Shown one piece after another: positions 5,326 to 14,363 of a DNA stretch of 33,689 nucleotides. A program made the position numbers and the translations under genes. Numbering within the stretch: position 1 is the stretch's first letter; every line of letters begins with the position of its first letter. The stretch covers positions 1 to 33,689 of the forward strand of contig JAUXRW010000042.1 of the NCBI GenBank assembly GCA_030681555.1. The letters are read 5' to 3'. Source of the DNA: Acidimicrobiales bacterium (GTDB lineage Bacteria > Actinomycetota > Acidimicrobiia > Acidimicrobiales > VFJN01). Below the pieces are notes generated by a model. The model did no database searches. It saw nothing but the letters and a program-made list of their open reading frames with translations, and was not told the DNA's origin.

Positions 5326-5967
5326 CTAGGTTCCGGGAGCCTCGGCCGCCACTGCGGCTGCGATGTCCGCTGCCAGACCTGGGCCGAGGAGCTGCACCTC
5401 GGCGTGGGCGGCGGTGAGCTCGCGGACGACGCGGTCGAGGTGCTCGGCCGGGAAGGCCAGTCGGGGCCGGCCCTGCAGCTGGCGGTGCAGGCGGAGGGCC
5501 ACGGCGCTCGGATCGGCGTAGCCGTCCCAGATCGGCGTGTCGCGCTGCGCCGCCGCGAACCGGGCCAAGCGGTCCGCTTCGGGCGCTCCGGCCCGGGACG
5601 CGACACGGGCCAGCGCCTGCGCCGCCCCTGCGAAGGCCTCGGTCACGCGGCCGTCTGTCGCCAGGACCCCGTCGAGCAGCAGCTCCCAGCCGGCGTGGCC
5701 CACGCCTCGGGAGGCGCCCCGTCCCACGCCCCTCCCCTGCAGGGCCCTGGTCAGGGCGATCGATCCGGCGCGGAAGCGAGGGTCGGCGTGGAAGAGCGCG
5801 TCCGTCCGGTGATGGATGGCGATGCCCAGCCCGATGTCGGGGTCCTCACGGGCGTCCGGCACGACGGCGCCCAACAGGGACTCGACGTCGGGCAGGATCG
5901 CCCCCAGCAGCACAAGGTCGTGGTCCGACACGCCGAGGGCGACCTGTACGTGCCCGACGAAGTTCAC
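5326..5967 (-). CDS. AcpH-like (acyl carrier protein phosphodiesterase-like) helical protein
   Basis: The product is 213 residues, mostly helical. The start MNFVGHVQVALG, then LLGAILPDVESLLG, then GIAIHHRTDALFHADPRFRAG, resembles the ACP phosphodiesterase/DUF479 layout (MNFLAH...GNFLPD...GI..HR.ID.F.D). Those enzymes remove 4'-phosphopantetheine from ACP. The conserved Asp/His spacing is present, followed by GHAGWELLLDGVL, matching the family's metal-site helix. The C-terminal half (RLARFAAAQRDTPIWDGYAD) is less similar, so the activity may differ. The start is GTG at 5967. A hydrolase role is inference; the fold assignment is moderately supported. Confidence 0.5.
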   Translation of the reverse strand: MNFVGHVQVALGVSDHDLVLLGAILPDVESLLGAVVPDAREDPDIGLGIAIHHRTDALFHADPRFRAGSIALTRALQGRGVGRGASRGVGHAGWELLLDGVLATDGRVTEAFAGAAQALARVASRAGAPEADRLARFAAAQRDTPIWDGYADPSAVALRLHRQLQGRPRLAFPAEHLDRVVRELTAAHAEVQLLGPGLAADIAAAVAAEAPGT

Positions 5968-6031
5968 CGTCCCAGTCTGCGCCGAGGAGCGCCCGCCACG
6001 CGTCCCGAGGGATGGGGCCCGTGCAGATGGG

Positions 6032-6037
6032 TACGTT
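6032..6037 (+). promoter_or_regulatory. -10 element (TACGTT) upstream of the LemA operon
   Basis: TACGTT ends 7 nt before a GTG at 6045, the leaderless spacing seen for other genes here. It places the mRNA start about 40 nt before the lemA-type reading frame. Confidence 0.45.
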
Positions 6038-6044
6038 GTGGCCC

Positions 6045-6092
6045 GTGAACGACGACACCTCCCCCCTCGTCACGGGGGTTCTCCCGTGGTGA
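6045..6092 (+). CDS. 15-codon leader ORF overlapping the LemA start
   Basis: GTG at 6045 opens a 15-codon ORF (MNDDTSPLVTGVLPW) whose TGA at 6090-6092 overlaps the GTG starts at 6086 and 6089 of the LemA-family gene. Its start lies 7 nt downstream of TACGTT, so it would be the first codon of a leaderless mRNA. It may be a leader peptide that couples ribosomes into LemA. Alternatively it is the true N-terminus of LemA, cut off by one lost base near 6086. The sequence alone cannot decide. Confidence 0.4.
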   Translation: MNDDTSPLVTGVLPW

Positions 6093-6712
6093 GCGCGCTC
6101 ACCGGCGGACCGACCCGCTCCCGCCCGGGATGGCTGATACCCGTGGTGGTGGTCGGCGCCATCCTCCTCCTGGTCGTGCTGTCGCTCAGCGGCTCCTACA
6201 ACGGGATGGTCGACAAGGAGGAGTCCGTCGACCAGTCCTTCGCCGATCTCGACTCCCAGCTCCAGCGACGCAACGATCTGATCCCCAACCTCGTCGCCGC
6301 CGTACGCGGTGCGCTCGAGCAGGAGCAGGCCGTCTTCGGCGAGATCGCCCGGGCCCGGCAGAACTACGCCGGTGCGGACTCCCCGGAGGAGCGCCTAGAG
6401 GCGGGCAACGAGGTCTCGAGCGCCCTCGGCCGGCTCCTGGTGATCGTCGAGGCCTACCCGCAGCTCCAGAGCAACGCGAACATCCGCGACCTCCAGGTGC
6501 AGCTGGAAGGCACCGAGAACCGGATCGCCCAGTCGCGCCGGGACTACAACGGCGTGGTCACCGACTACAACCGCAGCATCCGGCGCTTCCCCCGGAGCCT
6601 GCTCGCAGGCATGTTCGGGTTCGACCGCAAGCCCCTGTTCGAGGCGGAGCCGGAGGCCGGGGAACCGCCGGTCGTCGATCTCGGGGTCGACACCGCCACG
6701 ACCCTCGGGTGA
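6086..6712 (+). CDS. LemA family membrane protein
   Basis: This is a LemA-family protein of about 208 residues: one N-terminal transmembrane helix (GWLIPVVVVGAILLLVVLSL, about residues 13-32) followed by a long helical extracytoplasmic domain. The family signature is clear: NGMVDKEESVDQSFADLDSQ, then LQRRNDLIPNLVAAVRG, then an Ala/Arg/Glu-rich stretch, then EAYPQLQSNANIRDLQVQLE, then ENRIAQSRRDYNGVVTDYN and the closing FPRSLLAGMFGFDRKPLFEAE. The GTG at 6086 or 6089 is the only start after the overlapping leader ORF; it has a weak GGGGG-like upstream motif. Its stop overlaps the next GTG by 4 bp. LemA proteins commonly sit beside TPM-domain genes, as here. Their molecular role is not settled. 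Confidence 0.88.
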   Translation: MVSALTGGPTRSRPGWLIPVVVVGAILLLVVLSLSGSYNGMVDKEESVDQSFADLDSQLQRRNDLIPNLVAAVRGALEQEQAVFGEIARARQNYAGADSPEERLEAGNEVSSALGRLLVIVEAYPQLQSNANIRDLQVQLEGTENRIAQSRRDYNGVVTDYNRSIRRFPRSLLAGMFGFDRKPLFEAEPEAGEPPVVDLGVDTATTLG

Positions 6713-7515
6713 GGCCGCTCCGCCGGTTGGCGGGCCCCCGTCGCCTGGTCCTCCTCGCCGCCTGCGTCCTGGCCCTTGCCGGGCTCGCCCCCGGCGGCGC
6801 CACGGCGTGGGCGGGAGCCGCTTCCCCGGCTCAGCCAGAGTTAACCGCACCCGTGGTCGACGACGCAGACGTCGTGCCCGACGCCGTGGAGCGCGCGATC
6901 AGCGCCGAGCTCACGGCCTACGAGCAGCGCAGCGGCAACCAGATCGCCGTGGCGGTGGTGGACACCACCGGCGACGACTCGCTGGAGGACTACACCATCG
7001 ACCTCGCCCGGGCCTGGGGCGTCGGGACCGAAGGCGAGGACGACGGCGTCCTGCTCCTGATCGTCTACGAGGACCGGCGCCTCCGCATCGAGGTGGGCCG
7101 CGGCCTCGAGGGCGAGCTCACCGATCTCGAGTCAGGCGAGATCATCCGCGACCAGCTGCGGCCCCGGTTGCAGGCGGGTGACGTGGGCGGAGCGGTCACG
7201 GCGGGCACGCAGGCGATCCGCCAGGCGCTCGGCGACGACCTCGCCGCCGCGCCGCCGACGTCTGCGCCTCCTGAGGAGCGGCGCCGCACGGGCTCGCCGT
7301 GGCCCCTCCTGATCTTCGGGCTGCTCGCGCTCTTCTCGTTCGGTGGGTTCGGCCGCCGGCGTCGCCGGTTCGGCTGGGGGGGCCCGATGATCTTCGGGAC
7401 GGGACTCGGCGGCTTCGGAGGCTTCGGTGGGGGAGGCGGCTTCGGCGGTGGCGGCGGGTTCGGGGGCGGCGGAGGCGGCGGCTTCGGAGGGGGTGGTGCC
7501 AGTGGCGACTGGTGA
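6709..7515 (+). CDS. TPM-domain (YgcG-like) membrane protein with Gly-rich tail
   Basis: The 268-residue product starts at the GTG overlapping the LemA stop. Residues 1-35 form a signal peptide (RRLVLLAACVLALAGLAPGGATAWA). The TPM domain spans about residues 45-165: VVDDADVVPDAVERAISAEL, NQIAVAVVDTTGDDSLEDYTIDLARAWGVG, DDGVLLLIVYEDRRLRIEVGRGLEGELTD, RPRLQAGDVGGAVTAGTQAI. A Pro/Arg linker, one transmembrane segment (PWPLLIFGLLALFSFGGFG, about 200-218) and a long tail of FGG/GGG repeats follow. This is the standard layout of LemA-linked TPM proteins. Some family members have phosphatase activity or aid membrane-protein quality control; which applies here is unknown. The tail is exported or cytoplasmic depending on signal cleavage. 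Confidence 0.88.
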   Translation: MRPLRRLAGPRRLVLLAACVLALAGLAPGGATAWAGAASPAQPELTAPVVDDADVVPDAVERAISAELTAYEQRSGNQIAVAVVDTTGDDSLEDYTIDLARAWGVGTEGEDDGVLLLIVYEDRRLRIEVGRGLEGELTDLESGEIIRDQLRPRLQAGDVGGAVTAGTQAIRQALGDDLAAAPPTSAPPEERRRTGSPWPLLIFGLLALFSFGGFGRRRRRFGWGGPMIFGTGLGGFGGFGGGGGFGGGGGFGGGGGGGFGGGGASGDW

Positions 7516-8039: not shown

Positions 8040-8707
8040 GTGACCCGAACGCTCCTCCTCGCGCTGCACATCACCGGTGCAGCCGGGCAGCTGCCGGCGG
8101 TGAAGGTGGCCGGGCTCGTCGGTCCGCGTGGCGACGCGTACGAGGCGGACGACGACATCACCGTCGACGAAGCCGAGGACTACCACGGCGCACAGATCGC
8201 GACGTTGGCGCAGGCGCAGGTCGACCTCGTCGAGGCCATGACGTTCAACAACGTGCCCGAGGCCGTCGGGCTCGCCCGGGCCGCGGCCGCCCACGGCCTC
8301 CCTGCGTCGGTCTCGTTCATGGTGGACGGCTCCTCCCGGCTGGAGTCGGCCCGACGCTGCGGGAGGCGGTGGAGGCGGTCGATGCGCAGACCGGGGCCCA
8401 GCGGCCGGCCTTCTACGGGCTCAACTGCTCGCACCCGCACGAGTTCATGCCGGCCCTCGAGCCGGGCGACTGGTTCGAGCGCGTGCGCTGCCTGCGACCC
8501 AACGCCGTGCTGGCGGACAAGGCCGCGCTCTGCACGCTGGGTCACCTGGAGGCGGGAGATCCGGCCGAGCTCGGCCAGCTGATGGGCGAGCTGGCCACCC
8601 GCCATCCGCACGTCGACATCTTCGGCGGCTGTTGTGGCACGTGGGACAGCCACCTCGACGAGATCGCCCGCAACGTTGCCGAACGGGGCGCCGTCGCGTC
8701 GAGCTAG
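8040..8707 (+). pseudogene. Homocysteine S-methyltransferase family pseudogene (N-truncated, frameshifted)
   Basis: The family transfers a methyl group to homocysteine through a Zn site. The barrel middle is recognisable (VAGLVGPRGDAYEADDDITV, EAEDYHGAQIATLAQAQVDL, EAMTFNNVPEA), but the first ~110 residues, including the conserved GG(M/I)xT start, are absent. Nothing resembling them precedes the GTG at 8040. At about 8348 the frame breaks: in the first frame SRLESA runs into an Arg-rich stretch, while the next frame gives TLREAVEAVDAQTG and FYGLNCSHPHEF, continuing to the stop at 8707. One base seems lost from a GGGCCC-like run. The Zn-binding cysteines (Cys in GLNCSH and the pair in GGCCGTWDSH) remain. 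Truncation plus frameshift makes a dead gene likely, whatever the base-calling quality. The stop overlaps the convergent channel gene by 4 bp. Confidence 0.8.
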
Positions 8708-9684
8708 CCGGCCAGGGCGACGAGGGCGGCCAGCTCCGCCTGCGTCCCGATGGCGATGATGATCTCGCCCGGCTCGATGCGCGTGTCCGACCGGGGGTTG
8801 GTGCGGAAGGTGCCCTCGGCATCGCGCAGGGCGAGGACGAGCGCGCCCGTCCGGTCGCGCAGCTCGCTGCCGCCGAGGGTCGCGCCGGCGAGCGGGCTGT
8901 CGGGCCGCACGAGCACCTCCTCGAGACGGAACTCGAGGCTGTGCTCGTGCATGACGACGTCGAGGAACTCCGCCACGTGGGGCCGCACGACGAAGGCGGC
9001 CATGCGCACGCCGCCGATGCTCTGCGGGTTCACGACGCGGTCGGCGCCGGCTCGCGCGAGCTTCTCCTCGCTGGCCTGGCTGCGCGCTCGGGCGACGATG
9101 AACAGGCTGGGGTTGAGCGAGCGTGCGCCCAGCGCGATGAAGGAGTTGGCGGCGTCGCTGTCCACCGCAGCGACCAGCGCGGCGGCCCGCTCGATGCCGG
9201 CGTTGCGCAGGATCGAGTCGTCGGACGCGTCACCCACCACGACCCGGTGCCCCTCCACCACGCGCTCCGGATCGAGCTCCACCACCACGAGCTCCCGGCC
9301 TGCGCCCGCCACCTCGGCAGCGATGGACCGACCCACCCGACCCCATCCGCAGATGATCACGTGGTCGTGCAATCCGGCGATGGCCTGTTCCATGCGACGT
9401 CTCCCGAGCAGCTCGTTGAGGCGACCTTCGACGATGATCTCGACGATGGCGGCCAGTGCGTAGAGGGTGGCCCCCACCCCGACGAGGATGAGGGCCATCG
9501 TGAACACCTGTCCGGTGGCGGAGAGGGGCTCGACCTCGCGGAACCCCACCGTCGAGACCGTGGTGACGGTCTGGTACGTCGCATCGAGGAGCGAGAACCC
9601 CAGCACGACGTAGCCGACCGTGCCCGTCGCCAGCACCACCACCAGGGCCAGCAGCGCGCCCAGCAGCCGTCGCCCGTGGCTCAT
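8704..9684 (-). CDS. Two-helix potassium channel with RCK (TrkA-N/TrkA-C) module
   Basis: The 326-residue product is a K+ channel subunit with a cytoplasmic gating ring. Membrane part: helix 1 (LLGALLALVVVLATGTVGYVVL, about residues 5-27), pore loop with the selectivity-filter-like TTVSTVGF (about 38-45), and helix 2 (FTMALILVGVGATLYALAAIVEII, about 55-80). An RCK-N Rossmann domain follows (HVIICGWGRVGRSIAAEV, then ELVVVELDPE, VVVGDASDDSILRNAGIERA). An RCK-C domain ends the protein (EVLVRPDSPLAGATLGGSELRD, EPGEIIIAIGTQAELAAL). The filter reads TVGF rather than TVGY, a tolerated variant. The ATG at 9684 is supported by TAGCCT 7 nt upstream; longer in-frame extensions read through Ser/Arg-rich non-coding sequence. 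Confidence 0.9.
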   Translation of the reverse strand: MSHGRRLLGALLALVVVLATGTVGYVVLGFSLLDATYQTVTTVSTVGFREVEPLSATGQVFTMALILVGVGATLYALAAIVEIIVEGRLNELLGRRRMEQAIAGLHDHVIICGWGRVGRSIAAEVAGAGRELVVVELDPERVVEGHRVVVGDASDDSILRNAGIERAAALVAAVDSDAANSFIALGARSLNPSLFIVARARSQASEEKLARAGADRVVNPQSIGGVRMAAFVVRPHVAEFLDVVMHEHSLEFRLEEVLVRPDSPLAGATLGGSELRDRTGALVLALRDAEGTFRTNPRSDTRIEPGEIIIAIGTQAELAALVALAG

Positions 9685-9691
9685 CGCAGCG

Positions 9692-9697
9692 AGGCTA
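9692..9697 (-). promoter_or_regulatory. Leaderless -10 element (TAGCCT) of the potassium channel gene
   Basis: TAGCCT on the minus strand ends 7 nt before the ATG at 9684, predicting a leaderless or nearly leaderless mRNA. Confidence 0.5.
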
Positions 9698-9736
9698 GGC
9701 GGGTGCCGCCGTGCTGCGGTGCGTGCCCGGCGCGCG

Positions 9737-10297
9737 TCAGAGCTGGCTGAACGAGGCCGTGACGATGACGACGTTCGCAACCAGCATCAGCAGGGCCGCC
9801 GGATGGTGCAGCGCGGCTCCGACCGACTGCTGCGCCCCGTACGGGCGGACGGCCGACGGCAGTCCACCGCGCCGCCGCAGGACGCGCCACCCGGCCAGGC
9901 CCAGGGTCACCGCGGCGAGCACCTCGAGGGACGCCGCCAACCACGAGAGGGCGCTGACGCCGTCGACGCTCGTGAACGAGTCGCTCACCCAGCTGCGCTC
10001 CGGCAGGAAGTGGACCGCCAGGTAGGCGGGAGCGAGCGACCAGCCGGTGACGGCGGCGGTCAGGGGAGCGAGGCGGTGCCGCTGGCAGACGAGCACCACG
10101 ACGCCCACCTCGATGACGACGCCGAGCGTCCCGACCCAGAAGACGTCGCTGGCCACTGCGTCCGTGCCTCGGCGCAGGTGGTCGCTGTTGTGGATGACCA
10201 CCGCTGCGGTGAACAGCCAGGCCGCCCAGAGCAGGAGGCCGTCACCAGCGTCCGGTCGGGTGCCGGCGACCTCGGTCGTTCGTTGCGTCACGGTCAT
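9737..10297 (-). CDS. Multi-pass membrane protein of unknown function, divergent from TetR regulator
   Basis: The 186-residue protein has about five hydrophobic helices: LLLWAAWLFTAAVVIHNSDH, VFWVGTLGVVIEVGVVVLV, LTAAVTGWSLAPAYLAVHF, LSWLAASLEVLAAVTLGLA and PAALLMLVANVVIVTASFS. Charged or polar residues in the helices (HNSDH near residue 35, AVHFLPERSW near residue 110) could bind a metal or a substrate. I do not recognise a named family. The ATG at 10297 lies 3 bp from a perfect palindrome shared with the divergent TetR gene. The TetR protein therefore probably represses this gene and itself, a common arrangement for efflux or detoxification functions. Export of a small molecule is only a guess. 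Confidence 0.7.
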   Translation of the reverse strand: MTVTQRTTEVAGTRPDAGDGLLLWAAWLFTAAVVIHNSDHLRRGTDAVASDVFWVGTLGVVIEVGVVVLVCQRHRLAPLTAAVTGWSLAPAYLAVHFLPERSWVSDSFTSVDGVSALSWLAASLEVLAAVTLGLAGWRVLRRRGGLPSAVRPYGAQQSVGAALHHPAALLMLVANVVIVTASFSQL

Positions 10298-10348: not shown

Positions 10349-10948
10349 ATGGGCACCACCGAGGTCGACACCCGGGAGCGCATCGTCGCGGCGACATCGG
10401 CGCTCTTCATGCAGCAGGGGTATTCGGCCACCGGGCTCAAGGCCATCGCCAAGGCTGGGCGGGCCACGACGGGGTCGCTCTACCACTTCTTCCCCGGCGG
10501 CAAGGCCGAGCTGGCCGCGGCCACGCTGCGCCACTCCGGTCGGGGCTACGAGGAGCTGGTGATGTCGGTGATCGACGGGGCCCCGGACGTCGTGACGGGA
10601 CTTCGCGCCTGCTTCGCCGCCGCCGCCGACCTGCTCCGCGCCACGGACTACGTCGATGCCTGTCCCATCGCCACGGTCGCGCTCGAGGTGGCCAGCTCGG
10701 ACGAACCGCTGCGCCAGGTGATCGACGAGGTCTTCAGAAGCTGGCTCGACGCAGCCGCCCGCCGGCTCGCCGCCGACGGGGTGCCCGAGGAGCGGGCGCA
10801 AGAGCTCGCCATCGTCTTCGTCGCCGCCCTGGAAGGTGGCTTCCTCCTCAGCCGGGTGGCTCGGGACGCGTCCGCGATGGAGAGCGTGGGTCGCGCAGTG
10901 GTGGCGGCCGTGGAGGACGCCCTCGCCGAGGCCCGGCGGGGGAGCTGA
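10349..10948 (+). CDS. TetR/AcrR family transcriptional repressor (LmrA/YxaF-like)
   Basis: The 199-residue protein has an N-terminal helix-turn-helix domain (TRERIVAATSALFMQQGYSA, then GLKAIAKAGRATTGSLYHFF, about residues 8-53). PGGKAELAAATL after it is the variant typical of the LmrA/YxaF subgroup, where most TetR proteins have xxKExL. The C-terminal ligand domain contains YVDACPIATVALEVASSDEPLR, with a Cys at about residue 108 at the position conserved in this subgroup. A GGAGGG ribosome site precedes the ATG. It is divergent from the membrane-protein gene, and the shared palindrome at 10301-10310 is its likely operator. The inducer is unknown. Confidence 0.9.
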   Translation: MGTTEVDTRERIVAATSALFMQQGYSATGLKAIAKAGRATTGSLYHFFPGGKAELAAATLRHSGRGYEELVMSVIDGAPDVVTGLRACFAAAADLLRATDYVDACPIATVALEVASSDEPLRQVIDEVFRSWLDAAARRLAADGVPEERAQELAIVFVAALEGGFLLSRVARDASAMESVGRAVVAAVEDALAEARRGS

Positions 10949-10989
10949 GGCCTACCCCGCTGAATGCTCCCGGAATGGCATGTGTCACG

Positions 10990-11015
10990 GGTTAGAGCGG
11001 TGGCCGAGCGGGAAC
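10990..11015 (+). promoter_or_regulatory. Putative sigma-B-like promoter of the CsbD operon
   Basis: GGTT at 10990-10993 and GGGAAC at 11010-11015 are 16 nt apart. This resembles the actinobacterial stress-sigma consensus (about GTTT, 15-17 nt, GGGTA). The start codon is 35 nt further on with a GGAAGGAG ribosome site between. The match is good in spacing and imperfect in bases. Confidence 0.4.
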
Positions 11016-11049
11016 AACGCTCCAGAATCCCCCCACTGGAAGGAGCACC

Positions 11050-11559
11050 ATGGCTGATCCGCAGCCCACAGAGGAGCTCGCCACCGGCACTGTCGGTCGT
11101 GTGGTCGGCAAGGTGAAGTCGACCGTCGGCTCCCTGGTCGACAACGAGGAGCTGGAGCGCGAAGGCAACCTGCAGCAGGCCGGCGCCGAGGCCGAGGTCC
11201 GTTCTGAGCGTGAGATGGAGGCGGTCGAGCAGGAGCAGGCCGAGGTCGAGTTGCAGGAGCAGCGCCTCGAAGCCGAGACCGAGCGCGAGCGGCTGAAGGC
11301 CGAGATCGAGGCCGAGCAGCGCCGCGAACAGGCCGAGCAGACCGCGCAGGAGAAGGAGCTGGCCGCAGCTCGCGAGGCGGCTCAGAAGCGGGCCGGTGTC
11401 GAGGCCAGCGAGCGGGCCCAGGAGCAGGCGGCCGACGAGGCCGAGCAGCGAGCCGTGCGGGAGCGCGCCGCCGCAGCCGCCGAGGCCCAGCGGATCGAGC
11501 AGGCCGCCAACCAGGCCGAGGCCGCGGCCGACGTCATCGACCCGGAGGTAGCCAAGTGA
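11050..11559 (+). CDS. CsbD-domain protein with long Ala/Glu-rich coiled coil
   Basis: The product is 169 residues. Residues about 12-48 (TGTVGRVVGKVKSTVGSLVDNEELEREGNLQQAG, read in two parts) match the CsbD-like stress domain: GKVK, then VGxLxxxxxLExEGxxxQA. From about residue 50 to 160 the protein is almost only Ala, Glu, Gln and Arg in heptad-like order, predicting a long soluble coiled coil. CsbD proteins belong to general-stress regulons; their mechanism is unknown. A strong GGAAGGAG site precedes the ATG and a sigma-B-like promoter lies upstream. The stop overlaps the next gene's GTG by 4 bp. No signal peptide is present, so it acts in the cytoplasm. The coiled coil fused to CsbD is unusual compared with the usual ~60-residue CsbD protein. 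Confidence 0.8.
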   Translation: MADPQPTEELATGTVGRVVGKVKSTVGSLVDNEELEREGNLQQAGAEAEVRSEREMEAVEQEQAEVELQEQRLEAETERERLKAEIEAEQRREQAEQTAQEKELAAAREAAQKRAGVEASERAQEQAADEAEQRAVRERAAAAAEAQRIEQAANQAEAAADVIDPEVAK

Positions 11560-12179
11560 TCGCTCAGACCGCTCTCAGGACCGTTGTGGACGGGTGGCTC
11601 CGTGTCGCCCGCACGCCCATTGACGTCGTCGCCCGCCTCGTCCCCGCCGAGCGCATGGGCCGTCGCACGCCGATCGAGGTGAACATCGACCGGCTCGACG
11701 GCGGTCTCCGCGAGAAGGTCGGCGGGCTGTTGGGCGACGACGTGCTCATCGCCGACGGCCGGCGCCGCCGGATCGCCGCCGACGAGCGGATGCGGGCCAT
11801 CGAGCTGCGCCTGGAGGCCGAGAAGCGCGAGGCCGAGGCCGATGCCAAGCTCCAGAAGGACGAGCAAGCGGCCGAACGCCGTCGGGCCGAGGCCGAGCGT
11901 GTGGCCGAGGAGCGACGCGAGGCCGTAGAGCGGGAGCGGGCCGAGACGGAGCGGCGTGCCGAGCAGGCTGCGGCCAAGGAGAAGCAGGCCGCGCAGGCGG
12001 CCAAGGCCCGCAAGGCCGAGGCCACCGAGAAGCGAACTCGCCAGAAGCGCCTCGAGGTGCTCGACGACCAGCTGGAGCAGCTCGACGCCCGGACCGACGC
12101 ACTCACCGCCGCGGACGAGGCCAAGCGCCTCCGTACGGCTGCCGCGTCGGCGAAGGCAGCGCGCAAGAACGGGAGCTGA
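11556..12179 (+). CDS. Coiled-coil protein coupled to the CsbD-domain protein
   Basis: The 207-residue protein starts at a GTG overlapping the previous stop (GTGA). Residues 1-75 form a globular head (ALRTVVDGWLRVARTPIDVV, then PIEVNIDRLDGGLREKVGGLLGDDVLIADGRRRR). Residues about 80-205 are Ala/Glu/Arg/Lys-rich heptads, first acidic-mixed, then increasingly basic (KARKAEATEKRTRQKR). The basic tail complements the acidic coiled coil of the partner gene, so a heteromeric coiled-coil complex is an attractive inference. Similar pairs occur beside CsbD genes in Actinobacteria, but I know no assigned function. A strong hairpin follows the stop. Confidence 0.75.
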   Translation: MIAQTALRTVVDGWLRVARTPIDVVARLVPAERMGRRTPIEVNIDRLDGGLREKVGGLLGDDVLIADGRRRRIAADERMRAIELRLEAEKREAEADAKLQKDEQAAERRRAEAERVAEERREAVERERAETERRAEQAAAKEKQAAQAAKARKAEATEKRTRQKRLEVLDDQLEQLDARTDALTAADEAKRLRTAAASAKAARKNGS

Positions 12180-12188
12180 GGCGTGTTG

Positions 12189-12227
12189 CCAGGCTCCCGG
12201 CGGCTCGATCAGCCGCTGGGAGCCTGG
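12189..12227. terminator. Strong bidirectional hairpin between convergent genes
   Basis: CCAGGCTCCC...GGGAGCCTGG plus the inner arms GCGGCT/AGCCGC make a 17-bp stem with one G-T wobble and a 5-base CGATC loop. It starts 10 nt after the coiled-coil gene's stop. Its loop and right arm contain the stop codon of the convergent small gene (12209-12211). It is the most stable hairpin I found in the window and probably terminates both transcripts, without a T-tract. Confidence 0.7.
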
Positions 12228-12415
12228 CCGCCCATCGGGTCGTCGCCTGCGGGCGGCAGTCCCGTTTCGTCGATCATCGGGTCCGGCTTCGTGCTCCCGG
12301 TGACCGGATCGGCGCGGTCGCCGGCCTCCTCCTCGTCGCCGTCAGGCGGAGCATCTCCTGGCCGAGCCTCCGCATCGCGCTGCACCTGCTCCTCGATGTC
12401 CTTGTCCATCCCCAT
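12209..12415 (-). CDS. Small acidic, disordered protein
   Basis: The ORF encodes 68 residues, highly acidic and rich in Asp, Glu, Pro and Gly (MGMDKDIEEQVQRDAEARPG, then DEEEAGDRADPVTG and MIDETGLPPAGDDP). It has no hydrophobic core and is probably disordered. I do not recognise a family, but composition and length resemble small proteins often found in actinobacterial stress clusters, including the one at 14945. The ATG at 12415 is chosen because GGGGGAC lies about 8 nt upstream; ATG 12409 is possible. The longer upstream extension of the frame lacks coding character. It converges on the CsbD operon across a shared hairpin. Confidence 0.6.
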   Translation of the reverse strand: MGMDKDIEEQVQRDAEARPGDAPPDGDEEEAGDRADPVTGSTKPDPMIDETGLPPAGDDPMGGQAPSG

Positions 12416-12935: not shown

Positions 12936-14363
12936 TCAGAGGTCGAGGTCCGCCACGGCAGGCCCGCACACGACCTGGCCGGCCGCATCGAACCGGGAGC
13001 CGTGGCAGGGACAGTCCCAGGTCTGCTCGCGGTCGTCGAACCGGAGCCTGCAGCCCATGTGGGTGCACGTGGGATGCCGCTCGCGCCCCGGCAGCAGCTC
13101 CTCGACCCGATCGATCACCGTGTGCTGCAGCGAGCGGGCCGCGTCGCGCACGAGCTTCTTCGTGAGGTTGTCGGCCAGGCGGCCGGGTTCGAACACATCG
13201 GCGTGCTGGCGCCGCCGGCCTTCCATCTCCCCGAGGATCAGATCCGCGGTCACCATGGCGGTGGAGATCCCCCACTTGCCGAAGCCGGTGGCGACCCACG
13301 ACCGCTGCTTGCCGGGCGCCGAGCGCCCGATGAAGGGCACGCTGTCGGAGGGCACGAGGTCGTGGGCGGCCCAGCGGTGCATCGCGGGCTGCGCCCCCAG
13401 CGATCCCTGGGCGTAGCGGTCGAGCTCGTCGAGCCGCTCGTCCGGGGACTCGTCACCCGGCTTGCCGACCACGTGCCCCTTGCCGGCGACCACGACCGCC
13501 GGCGCGCCCTCGATGGTGGCCGGTCGGATCGAGCGCGAGCTCTCGTCGAGCGAGATGTACATACCCTGGGGGGGAGCGGTGTGCGGCGAGGCGATGGCGT
13601 AGGAGCGGGTGGCCTCGCACCGCGTGGTGAGGAGGGCAGGGTCGTACACCGGGCCCAGGGTGGCGGTGATCACGTGGTCCGCGGTGAGGCGGCGGCCGTC
13701 GGCCAACGACACCTCCACGCCACCCGTGCTCTCGTCGACCCCCGTCACCACGCAGCCGGTCACCACCCGTTCGCCCAGGACCCCGGCCAACCCGGCACAG
13801 AGCGCACCGGGATCGAGGTGGGCCTGGTCGGCCAGCTGCACGGCACCGAGGATGGGGAAGGGCAGCTCGGTGGCATCGACCCAGCGCACCGGTAGCCCAG
13901 CCGCCGTTGCGTGCTGCAGCAGCTCTGCGCACTTGGTGTCGGCCTCGGGCTCGGTGGCGAAGGTGTGGTCGTCTGCCCTGGTGAGCGAGCAGTCGATGCC
14001 GAGGTCATCGATCAGGTTCCGCATCGCACCGACGCCGAACAGGCACGCCTGGGCGTACTGGGCCGCGGCGCCGGCGTCACAAAGCTGGGTGATCGTGGAG
14101 AGCATCGAGCCCTGCAGTGCGGTGAGCTTCCCCGTCGAGCCGCGCGTGGTGACCCCGCCGATGCTGTCGTGCCGTTCGAGCACGATCACATCGACGCCGG
14201 CCCGCTGGAGGACCACGGCCGTCAGCAGCCCGGTGAGCCCCCCGCCGATGACCACGGCGTCGTACCGACGCGCCCCGATGACGGCGGGGGTGGAAGATCC
14301 CCCCGGCAGGGACCGGGACCAGAGGGAAGCGTTCTCCCAGGGCAGCGGATCGGCGGTGGTCAT
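12936..14363 (-). CDS. FAD-dependent oxidoreductase (DAO fold) with C-terminal Rieske [2Fe-2S] domain
   Basis: The 475-residue fusion enzyme has an FAD dinucleotide-binding motif at about residues 36-50 (VVIGGGLTGLLTAVVL, followed by VIVLERHDSIGGVTTRGSTG). A DAO-type substrate domain follows, with the second FAD contact near residue 360 (WVATGFGKWGISTAMVTADL). The Rieske domain occupies the last ~90 residues. Its ligands are Cys433/His435 in CTHMGC and Cys451/His454 in CPCHGSRF. The extra Cys438/Cys453 pair could form the disulfide of higher-potential Rieske proteins. Electrons probably pass between FAD and the cluster; the substrate is unknown. The family is widespread in soil bacteria. It shares a transcript with the metallothionein gene and is divergent from the CBS operon. 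A GGGTAC motif lies upstream without a convincing -35. Confidence 0.88.
   Translation of the reverse strand: MTTADPLPWENASLWSRSLPGGSSTPAVIGARRYDAVVIGGGLTGLLTAVVLQRAGVDVIVLERHDSIGGVTTRGSTGKLTALQGSMLSTITQLCDAGAAAQYAQACLFGVGAMRNLIDDLGIDCSLTRADDHTFATEPEADTKCAELLQHATAAGLPVRWVDATELPFPILGAVQLADQAHLDPGALCAGLAGVLGERVVTGCVVTGVDESTGGVEVSLADGRRLTADHVITATLGPVYDPALLTTRCEATRSYAIASPHTAPPQGMYISLDESSRSIRPATIEGAPAVVVAGKGHVVGKPGDESPDERLDELDRYAQGSLGAQPAMHRWAAHDLVPSDSVPFIGRSAPGKQRSWVATGFGKWGISTAMVTADLILGEMEGRRRQHADVFEPGRLADNLTKKLVRDAARSLQHTVIDRVEELLPGRERHPTCTHMGCRLRFDDREQTWDCPCHGSRFDAAGQVVCGPAVADLDL

Follow-up and report, generated by a model that had tools for sequence, protein, structure and literature searches.

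A two-gene unit of Actinomycetota encoding CsbD-headed proteins with length-matched helical tails, probable subunits of one heteromeric rod

The gene pair and its surroundings

The window, that is, the whole stretch of DNA analysed here, comprises 33,689 nucleotides from an Acidimicrobiales bacterium (contig JAUXRW010000042.1 of assembly GCA_030681555.1). It carries two overlapping genes, here called P1 and P2, on the forward strand. The features of the pair and its immediate borders are as follows.

10989 to 10994, forward strand: GGGTTA, possible -10 element of the stress sigma factor type, one base off GGGTA
11039 to 11044, forward strand: AAGGAG, likely ribosome-binding site of P1, 5 bases before the ATG (sequence)
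11050 to 11559, forward strand: P1, ATG start, 169 aa, a CsbD-like head (about residues 12-53) followed by an acidic Ala/Glu/Gln-rich helix to the C-terminus (sequence, Pfam, AF2)
11083 to 11208, forward strand: CsbD-like head of P1, residues 12-53 (Pfam PF05532, 32.4 bits)
11556 to 11559, forward strand: GTGA, 4-bp overlap of the P1 stop and P2 start codons (sequence)
11556 to 12179, forward strand: P2, GTG start, 207 aa, an N-terminal amphipathic helix, a degenerate CsbD-like head and a long Ala/Glu/Arg/Lys helix (sequence, profile comparison, AF2)
11556 to 11639, forward strand: N-terminal amphipathic helix of P2, residues 1-28, which P1 does not have (AF2, hydrophobic moment)
11661 to 11807, forward strand: CsbD-like head of P2, residues 36-84 (comparison of P1-head and P2-head profiles, MBP-1 profile)
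12188 to 12228, no strand assigned: strong hairpin after P2 with an 18-bp stem (-45.5 kcal/mol for 60 nt, z -6.4)

The GTG codon of P2 is preceded by a GGAGG ribosome-binding site, and a GTGA or ATGA stop/start overlap recurs in several relatives. A preliminary description of this DNA, made from the sequence alone, had reported a CsbD head on an acidic Ala/Glu/Gln coil and a 4-bp overlap with the following gene. Both observations hold, with a P1 helix of about 115 residues and the overlap read as GTGA. The contrast it drew with ordinary short CsbD proteins is likewise borne out. P1 and P2 exceed the size of domain-only CsbD proteins (about 60-80 residues), and the same genome has one short CsbD protein encoded by an open frame of 77 aa that scores 47 bits.

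Upstream lies a gene for a TetR-type regulator that ends at 10948, and about 100 non-coding bases separate it from P1. The GGGTA pentamer is similar to the -10 sites that SigB/SigF-type sigma factors recognize. Of 20 non-mycobacterial loci, 15 have it in the 110 bases preceding P1, where 1.4 are expected and 300 shuffles gave a maximum of 5. These sites support the earlier suggestion that the proteins are made in stress, and the pair is probably under the control of a general-stress sigma factor, as judged from the promoter motif. The hairpin downstream of P2 is likely a transcription terminator, possibly serving both strands; an obvious T run is absent.

A second type of upstream element is a palindrome resembling TGTGN8CACA (CRP-type), seen before P1 in many of the mycobacteria (loci L056, L057, L063 and L076-L085). 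In those mycobacterial upstream regions it is followed downstream by a conserved GTTTCGG...GTGGAACC sequence. The CRP-like GTGN8CAC motif is mildly enriched upstream of P1, mainly among closely related mycobacteria, and the window has a weak CRP-type half-site at 10975-10988.

Further out, the reverse strand of the window encodes a potassium-channel-like protein with ion channel, TrkA-N and TrkA-C domains (8704-9780) and an FAD-dependent oxidoreductase with a Rieske domain at its C-terminus (12936-14363). On the forward strand, 5816-7515 holds a gene for a LemA family protein and, directly after it, a frame whose product ends in a long tail rich in Gly and Phe and is probably a TPM-domain membrane protein.

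CsbD-like heads and the relation of P1 to P2

The CsbD family (PF05532) comprises general stress proteins, among them CsbD of B. subtilis and YjbJ of E. coli. The exact role of the CsbD protein has been called unknown (PMC7660261). P1 matches the Pfam profile with 32.4 bits (E 8.5e-8), which is under the curated gathering cut-off of 40. The nearest named profile for its head and the first part of its helix is NCBIfam MBP-1 (NF050175), which P1 matches over profile positions 1-77 of 78 with 36.3 bits; the two scores of this profile at the window, 36.3 and 18.9 bits, are both below its curated cut-off of 80. MBP-1 of M. avium has been reported to bind host vimentin (PMC4931667). The MBP-1 model spans 78 positions and lacks the long tail, and P1 falls far under its cut-off, so a match of this weakness gives no reason to expect P1 or P2 to bind vimentin.

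In a Pfam scan P2 has no match at all. A comparison of profiles built from the two heads nevertheless pairs the P1 head with residues 36-84 of P2 at a probability of 97.9 and a score of 56, against a maximum of 11.7 in 30 shuffles of the P2 columns. The MBP-1 profile alone matches five of eight P2 proteins, and it also picks up P2 in the genome. From these two lines of evidence P2 is read as an N-terminal helix, a CsbD head and a tail, and P1 as a head and a tail. The head of P2 is a feature that the preliminary description had missed. The likeness continues beyond the heads: the tails are 24% identical when aligned in register, and any other shift gives at most 18%. By these comparisons P2 is a paralogue of P1; its CsbD head is degenerate, and it has an amphipathic helix added at the N-terminus. 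This helix has a hydrophobic moment of 0.36 (p 0.0015 against shuffles), a value that is significant in several relatives and marginal in some. Both heads are thus CsbD-like by homology, as judged from profile comparison, and not family members by the cut-off. What the pair shares with the CsbD family is the profile match of P1, the match of P2 to the P1 head and the stress-type motif upstream. It differs from the family in its sub-cut-off score, its long helical tails, its near-constant organization as a two-gene unit and the N-terminal helix of P2.

AF2 models predict helices at residues 7-163 of P1 and at residues 2-28, 39-59 and 62-206 of P2, with pLDDT of about 90-96 over most of both tails. 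The models are of single chains, built from 11-sequence alignments, and have no bearing on an interface. A sequence search against solved structures returned no match for either protein; Foldseek with the two models found none for P1 and chance matches only for P2.

Occurrence across genomes

A search for the same pair in other genomes, which the preliminary description had proposed, finds it repeatedly across the phylum, also in named mycobacteria. Of 396 Actinomycetota genomes sampled evenly, 18 have the pair. Within the order of the window, full-length P2 matches occur in seven other genomes, each adjoining a P1. All 10 named Mycobacterium/Mycolicibacterium loci have P1 next to P2. Further pairs came from another order (8) and from the mycobacterial order (19). 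A scan of genome contigs succeeded with an alignment of mycobacterial P2 proteins as query; a more diverse P2 alignment contained no segment of sufficient conservation for it. The same scan with P1 alone as query gave no match. One mycobacterial-order locus with a broken P2 frame (L156) was left out of the evaluation.

The association of the two genes is tight. At 28 of the 29 P2 loci first examined, P1 lies directly upstream on the same strand, the two frames overlapping by 4 bases at the closest and lying 89 bases apart at the widest. At the remaining locus (L054, genome G322) P2 is a clear orphan: its tail is degenerate and it adjoins no P1, which fits loss of the partner followed by decay of P2. 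Three long P1 genes that seemed to stand alone (in G441, G256 and G270) each turned out to adjoin a P2 in another arrangement. Of the 67 pairs extracted in total, 65 are in the order P1-P2, one is in the order P2-P1 and one is divergent. Homologues of one partner thus do not regularly occur without the other, as one clear orphan P2 and a truncated plasmid copy stand against 67 pairs.

The unusual arrangements are of three kinds. In G441 (L058 / L096) the genes are divergent, head to head, and do not form one operon. In G256 (L072 / L111) P2 comes before P1. P2 also precedes P1 in G270 (L095), where its frame is broken through either an assembly error or decay.

The truncated copy is found on the Rhodococcus oxybenzonivorans plasmid pRB29 (L086:3986-4333). 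It encodes 115 aa with the N-terminal motif and the degenerate head; the long tail is missing and no P1 is seen close by. There is a similar match on another Rhodococcus plasmid. P2 of the window used as query against plasmids gave no match, nor did mycobacterial P2 against phages. Occurrence of the pair is patchy: P2 is absent from three other species of the genus of the window, so the pair is dispensable.

Tails, partners and a possible stress scaffold

The tails extend about 135 residues (P1) and about 144 residues (P2) beyond the anchor leucine of the CsbD head in their standard form. Conserved hydrophobic columns, 28 in P1 and 30 in P2, coincide in 19 places at offset 0 (p about 5e-9), and the hydrophobic profiles of the two tails correlate with r 0.49 at this offset, against 0.27 at the next best. 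In the middle part of the shared strip the spacings are 7, 7, 11, 7, 11, 11, 11 and 11. Over the whole tails neither a heptad nor a hendecad period is significant in P1 and P2 of the window, and the best local heptad windows reach a p of only about 0.05; large hydrophobic residues make up only about 11% of the tails. The coiled coil proposed earlier therefore stands as far as the long predicted helix is concerned and lacks significance as a plain heptad repeat running through the entire tail. An ER/K-type single helix was also considered and dropped, the excess of i to i+4 salt bridges not being consistent.

The register could in part be inherited from the common ancestor. A stronger argument for pairing comes from insertions and deletions that postdate the duplication. 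When the two tails of 48 pairs were each compared with the family profile independently, allowing a single insertion or deletion, the best fit was the same in both proteins in 45. The classes, given as P1/P2, are 0/0 (standard), +15/+15 (mycobacteria), -29/-29 (L053) and -33/-33 (L055), and the mismatch in the remaining three pairs (L035, L065 and G256) comes from marginal fits only. Group fits put the mycobacterial insertion at about position 66 of the P1 tail and 70 of the P2 tail, and the L055 deletion at about 56 and 61. The two L053 deletions are of the same size at different sites, about 81 in P1 and about 35 in P2. The 19 further pairs of the mycobacterial order mostly have +15 in both proteins; in the most distant members the P2 fit is ambiguous (-4 or +15) against the standard profile and 0 against the mycobacterial one. 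Tail lengths of P1 and P2 correlate with r 0.94 over the 67 pairs, shared ancestry leaving three real events, so that the p-value is not to be taken literally. The argument thus concerns three lineages, two of which are single genomes of one family (L053 and L055); their deletions look independent all the same, since they differ in size and place. Gene conversion is ruled out as the source of the matched changes, because P1 and P2 are no more identical within genomes than between them (0.237 versus 0.232, and 0.212 versus 0.211). As read from the alignments, the matched changes support a parallel, in-register hetero-coiled coil.

Charge contributes less than the preliminary description had supposed. 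In the window P1 has a net charge of -21; that of P2 is +6, falling to about +2 when the helical part is taken by itself and to 0 for the final 40 residues. The C-terminus of P2 is therefore rich in Lys and Arg, as had been noted, and does not amount to a net basic tail. All but one of the P1 tails are acidic, and in 66 of 67 pairs P2 is the more positive partner; this difference is conserved, but support for charge as the driver of pairing is weak. Among P2 proteins the charge varies from -16 (acidic, L157) to about +21 (strongly basic, L033) and is often close to neutral. A charge zipper was rejected, position-wise complementarity in true pairs being no better than in mismatched ones. Given this result and the wide variation in P2, charge is read as a secondary feature that perhaps disfavours homo-oligomers of P1. 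In the exceptional pair, that of G256, the charges are reversed (P1 tail +5, P2 tail -10).

The reading that best accommodates these observations is that P1 and P2 are two subunits of one heteromeric, parallel, in-register rod, to which we assign a probability of roughly 0.7 on sequence evidence. The hetero-oligomer of the preliminary description thereby gains indirect support, from adjacency kept in three gene arrangements, from the shared hydrophobic strip and from the matched insertions and deletions. The two proteins would have arisen by duplication of one CsbD-headed helical protein and would share an mRNA in which stop and start codon overlap; the promoter motif points to transcription by a general-stress sigma factor. 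Shared register and matched length changes suggest that their tails, lined by the hydrophobic strip with its spacings of 7 and 11, associate as a parallel heteromeric coiled coil. Counted from the CsbD anchor, tails of 135 and 144 residues would make a rod of about 20 nm if helical. One end would hold both CsbD heads and, next to them, the amphipathic helix of P2, through which the rod may be anchored on a lipid surface, a membrane or some other protein. The Lys/Arg-rich C-terminus of P2 would form the other end.

Three other readings account for part of the same evidence. Both proteins may be protectants of the LEA or hydrophilin kind, unstructured or singly helical, that shield membranes and proteins during drying or osmotic stress and have no fixed partner. 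Their composition (Ala, Glu, Lys, Arg and Gln, with few large hydrophobics), the membership of CsbD in a general-stress family, the stress-type promoter motif and the 11-residue spacing of the hydrophobic strip all fit, and an Ala/Glu/Lys-rich helix with such spacing in a stress setting recalls the group 3 LEA proteins in particular. Pfam matches up to E 1 include no LEA family, however, and P1 and P2 differ from these proteins in being the products of two genes with matched tail lengths. A loose protectant needs neither a residue-exact match of tail lengths nor a gapless in-register strip, and we consider this reading unlikely.

About equally unlikely is a pair that coats a lipid inclusion or the inner membrane in the manner of phasins or apolipoproteins, the rods projecting outwards from a surface anchor formed by the amphipathic helix of P2. 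It would make sense of the 11-residue spacings and of the significant hydrophobic moment of the P2 helix in several relatives; the moment is marginal in others, and phasin and lipid-binding families gave no match in the profile scans. Such a coat is compatible with a heteromeric rod.

Somewhat less probable again is that each tail forms a single stable alpha-helix or a homo-oligomer, and that the genes stay together through shared regulation after a tandem duplication. The weak heptad signal agrees with this, and common descent of tandem paralogues itself predicts in-register similarity. It does not predict that the +15, -29 and -33 changes, which postdate the duplication, match in both genes and in L053 lie at different sites, nor that adjacency is kept in three gene arrangements, and P1-P2 identity gives no sign of gene conversion. 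Homology of P2 to translation initiation factor IF-2, suggested by the label 'IF2 family translation initiation factor' that mycobacterial relatives presumably carry in public annotation and that the Ala/Glu/Lys-rich N-terminal stretch of IF-2 would explain, is refuted by the absence of GTPase and IF-2 domains (Pfam, NCBIfam), the likeness being at most compositional.

For the heteromeric rod a parallel is offered by obligate heteromeric coiled-coil pairs in general, for example the heterodimeric keratins of intermediate filaments. There too, an acidic rod and a neutral to basic one, paralogous to each other, keep register and have matched lengths. P1 and P2 have no sequence relation to these pairs, their heptads lack significance over the whole tail, and their assembly into filaments would be hypothetical. 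No description of the pair was found in a literature search that covered a minority of the subscription journals. The paralogy of the pair, its shared register and its matched insertions and deletions are new findings at the level of sequence.

The most likely role for a rod of this kind, put forward tentatively, would be that of a stress-induced spacer, scaffold or tether that keeps the CsbD heads at a fixed distance from a contact at the far end. Slightly less probable is the wider picture of an undescribed two-subunit, stress-induced coiled coil in part of the Actinomycetota, in which the P2 helix would tie the rods to membrane or lipid and the whole would form a scaffold or a filament network. 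If this picture is true, it would be the first case of a mechanical role for the CsbD domain. Two CsbD heads on one measured rod would offer a handle on the function of the domain, and the matched insertions and deletions would amount to a natural experiment on the length of the rod.
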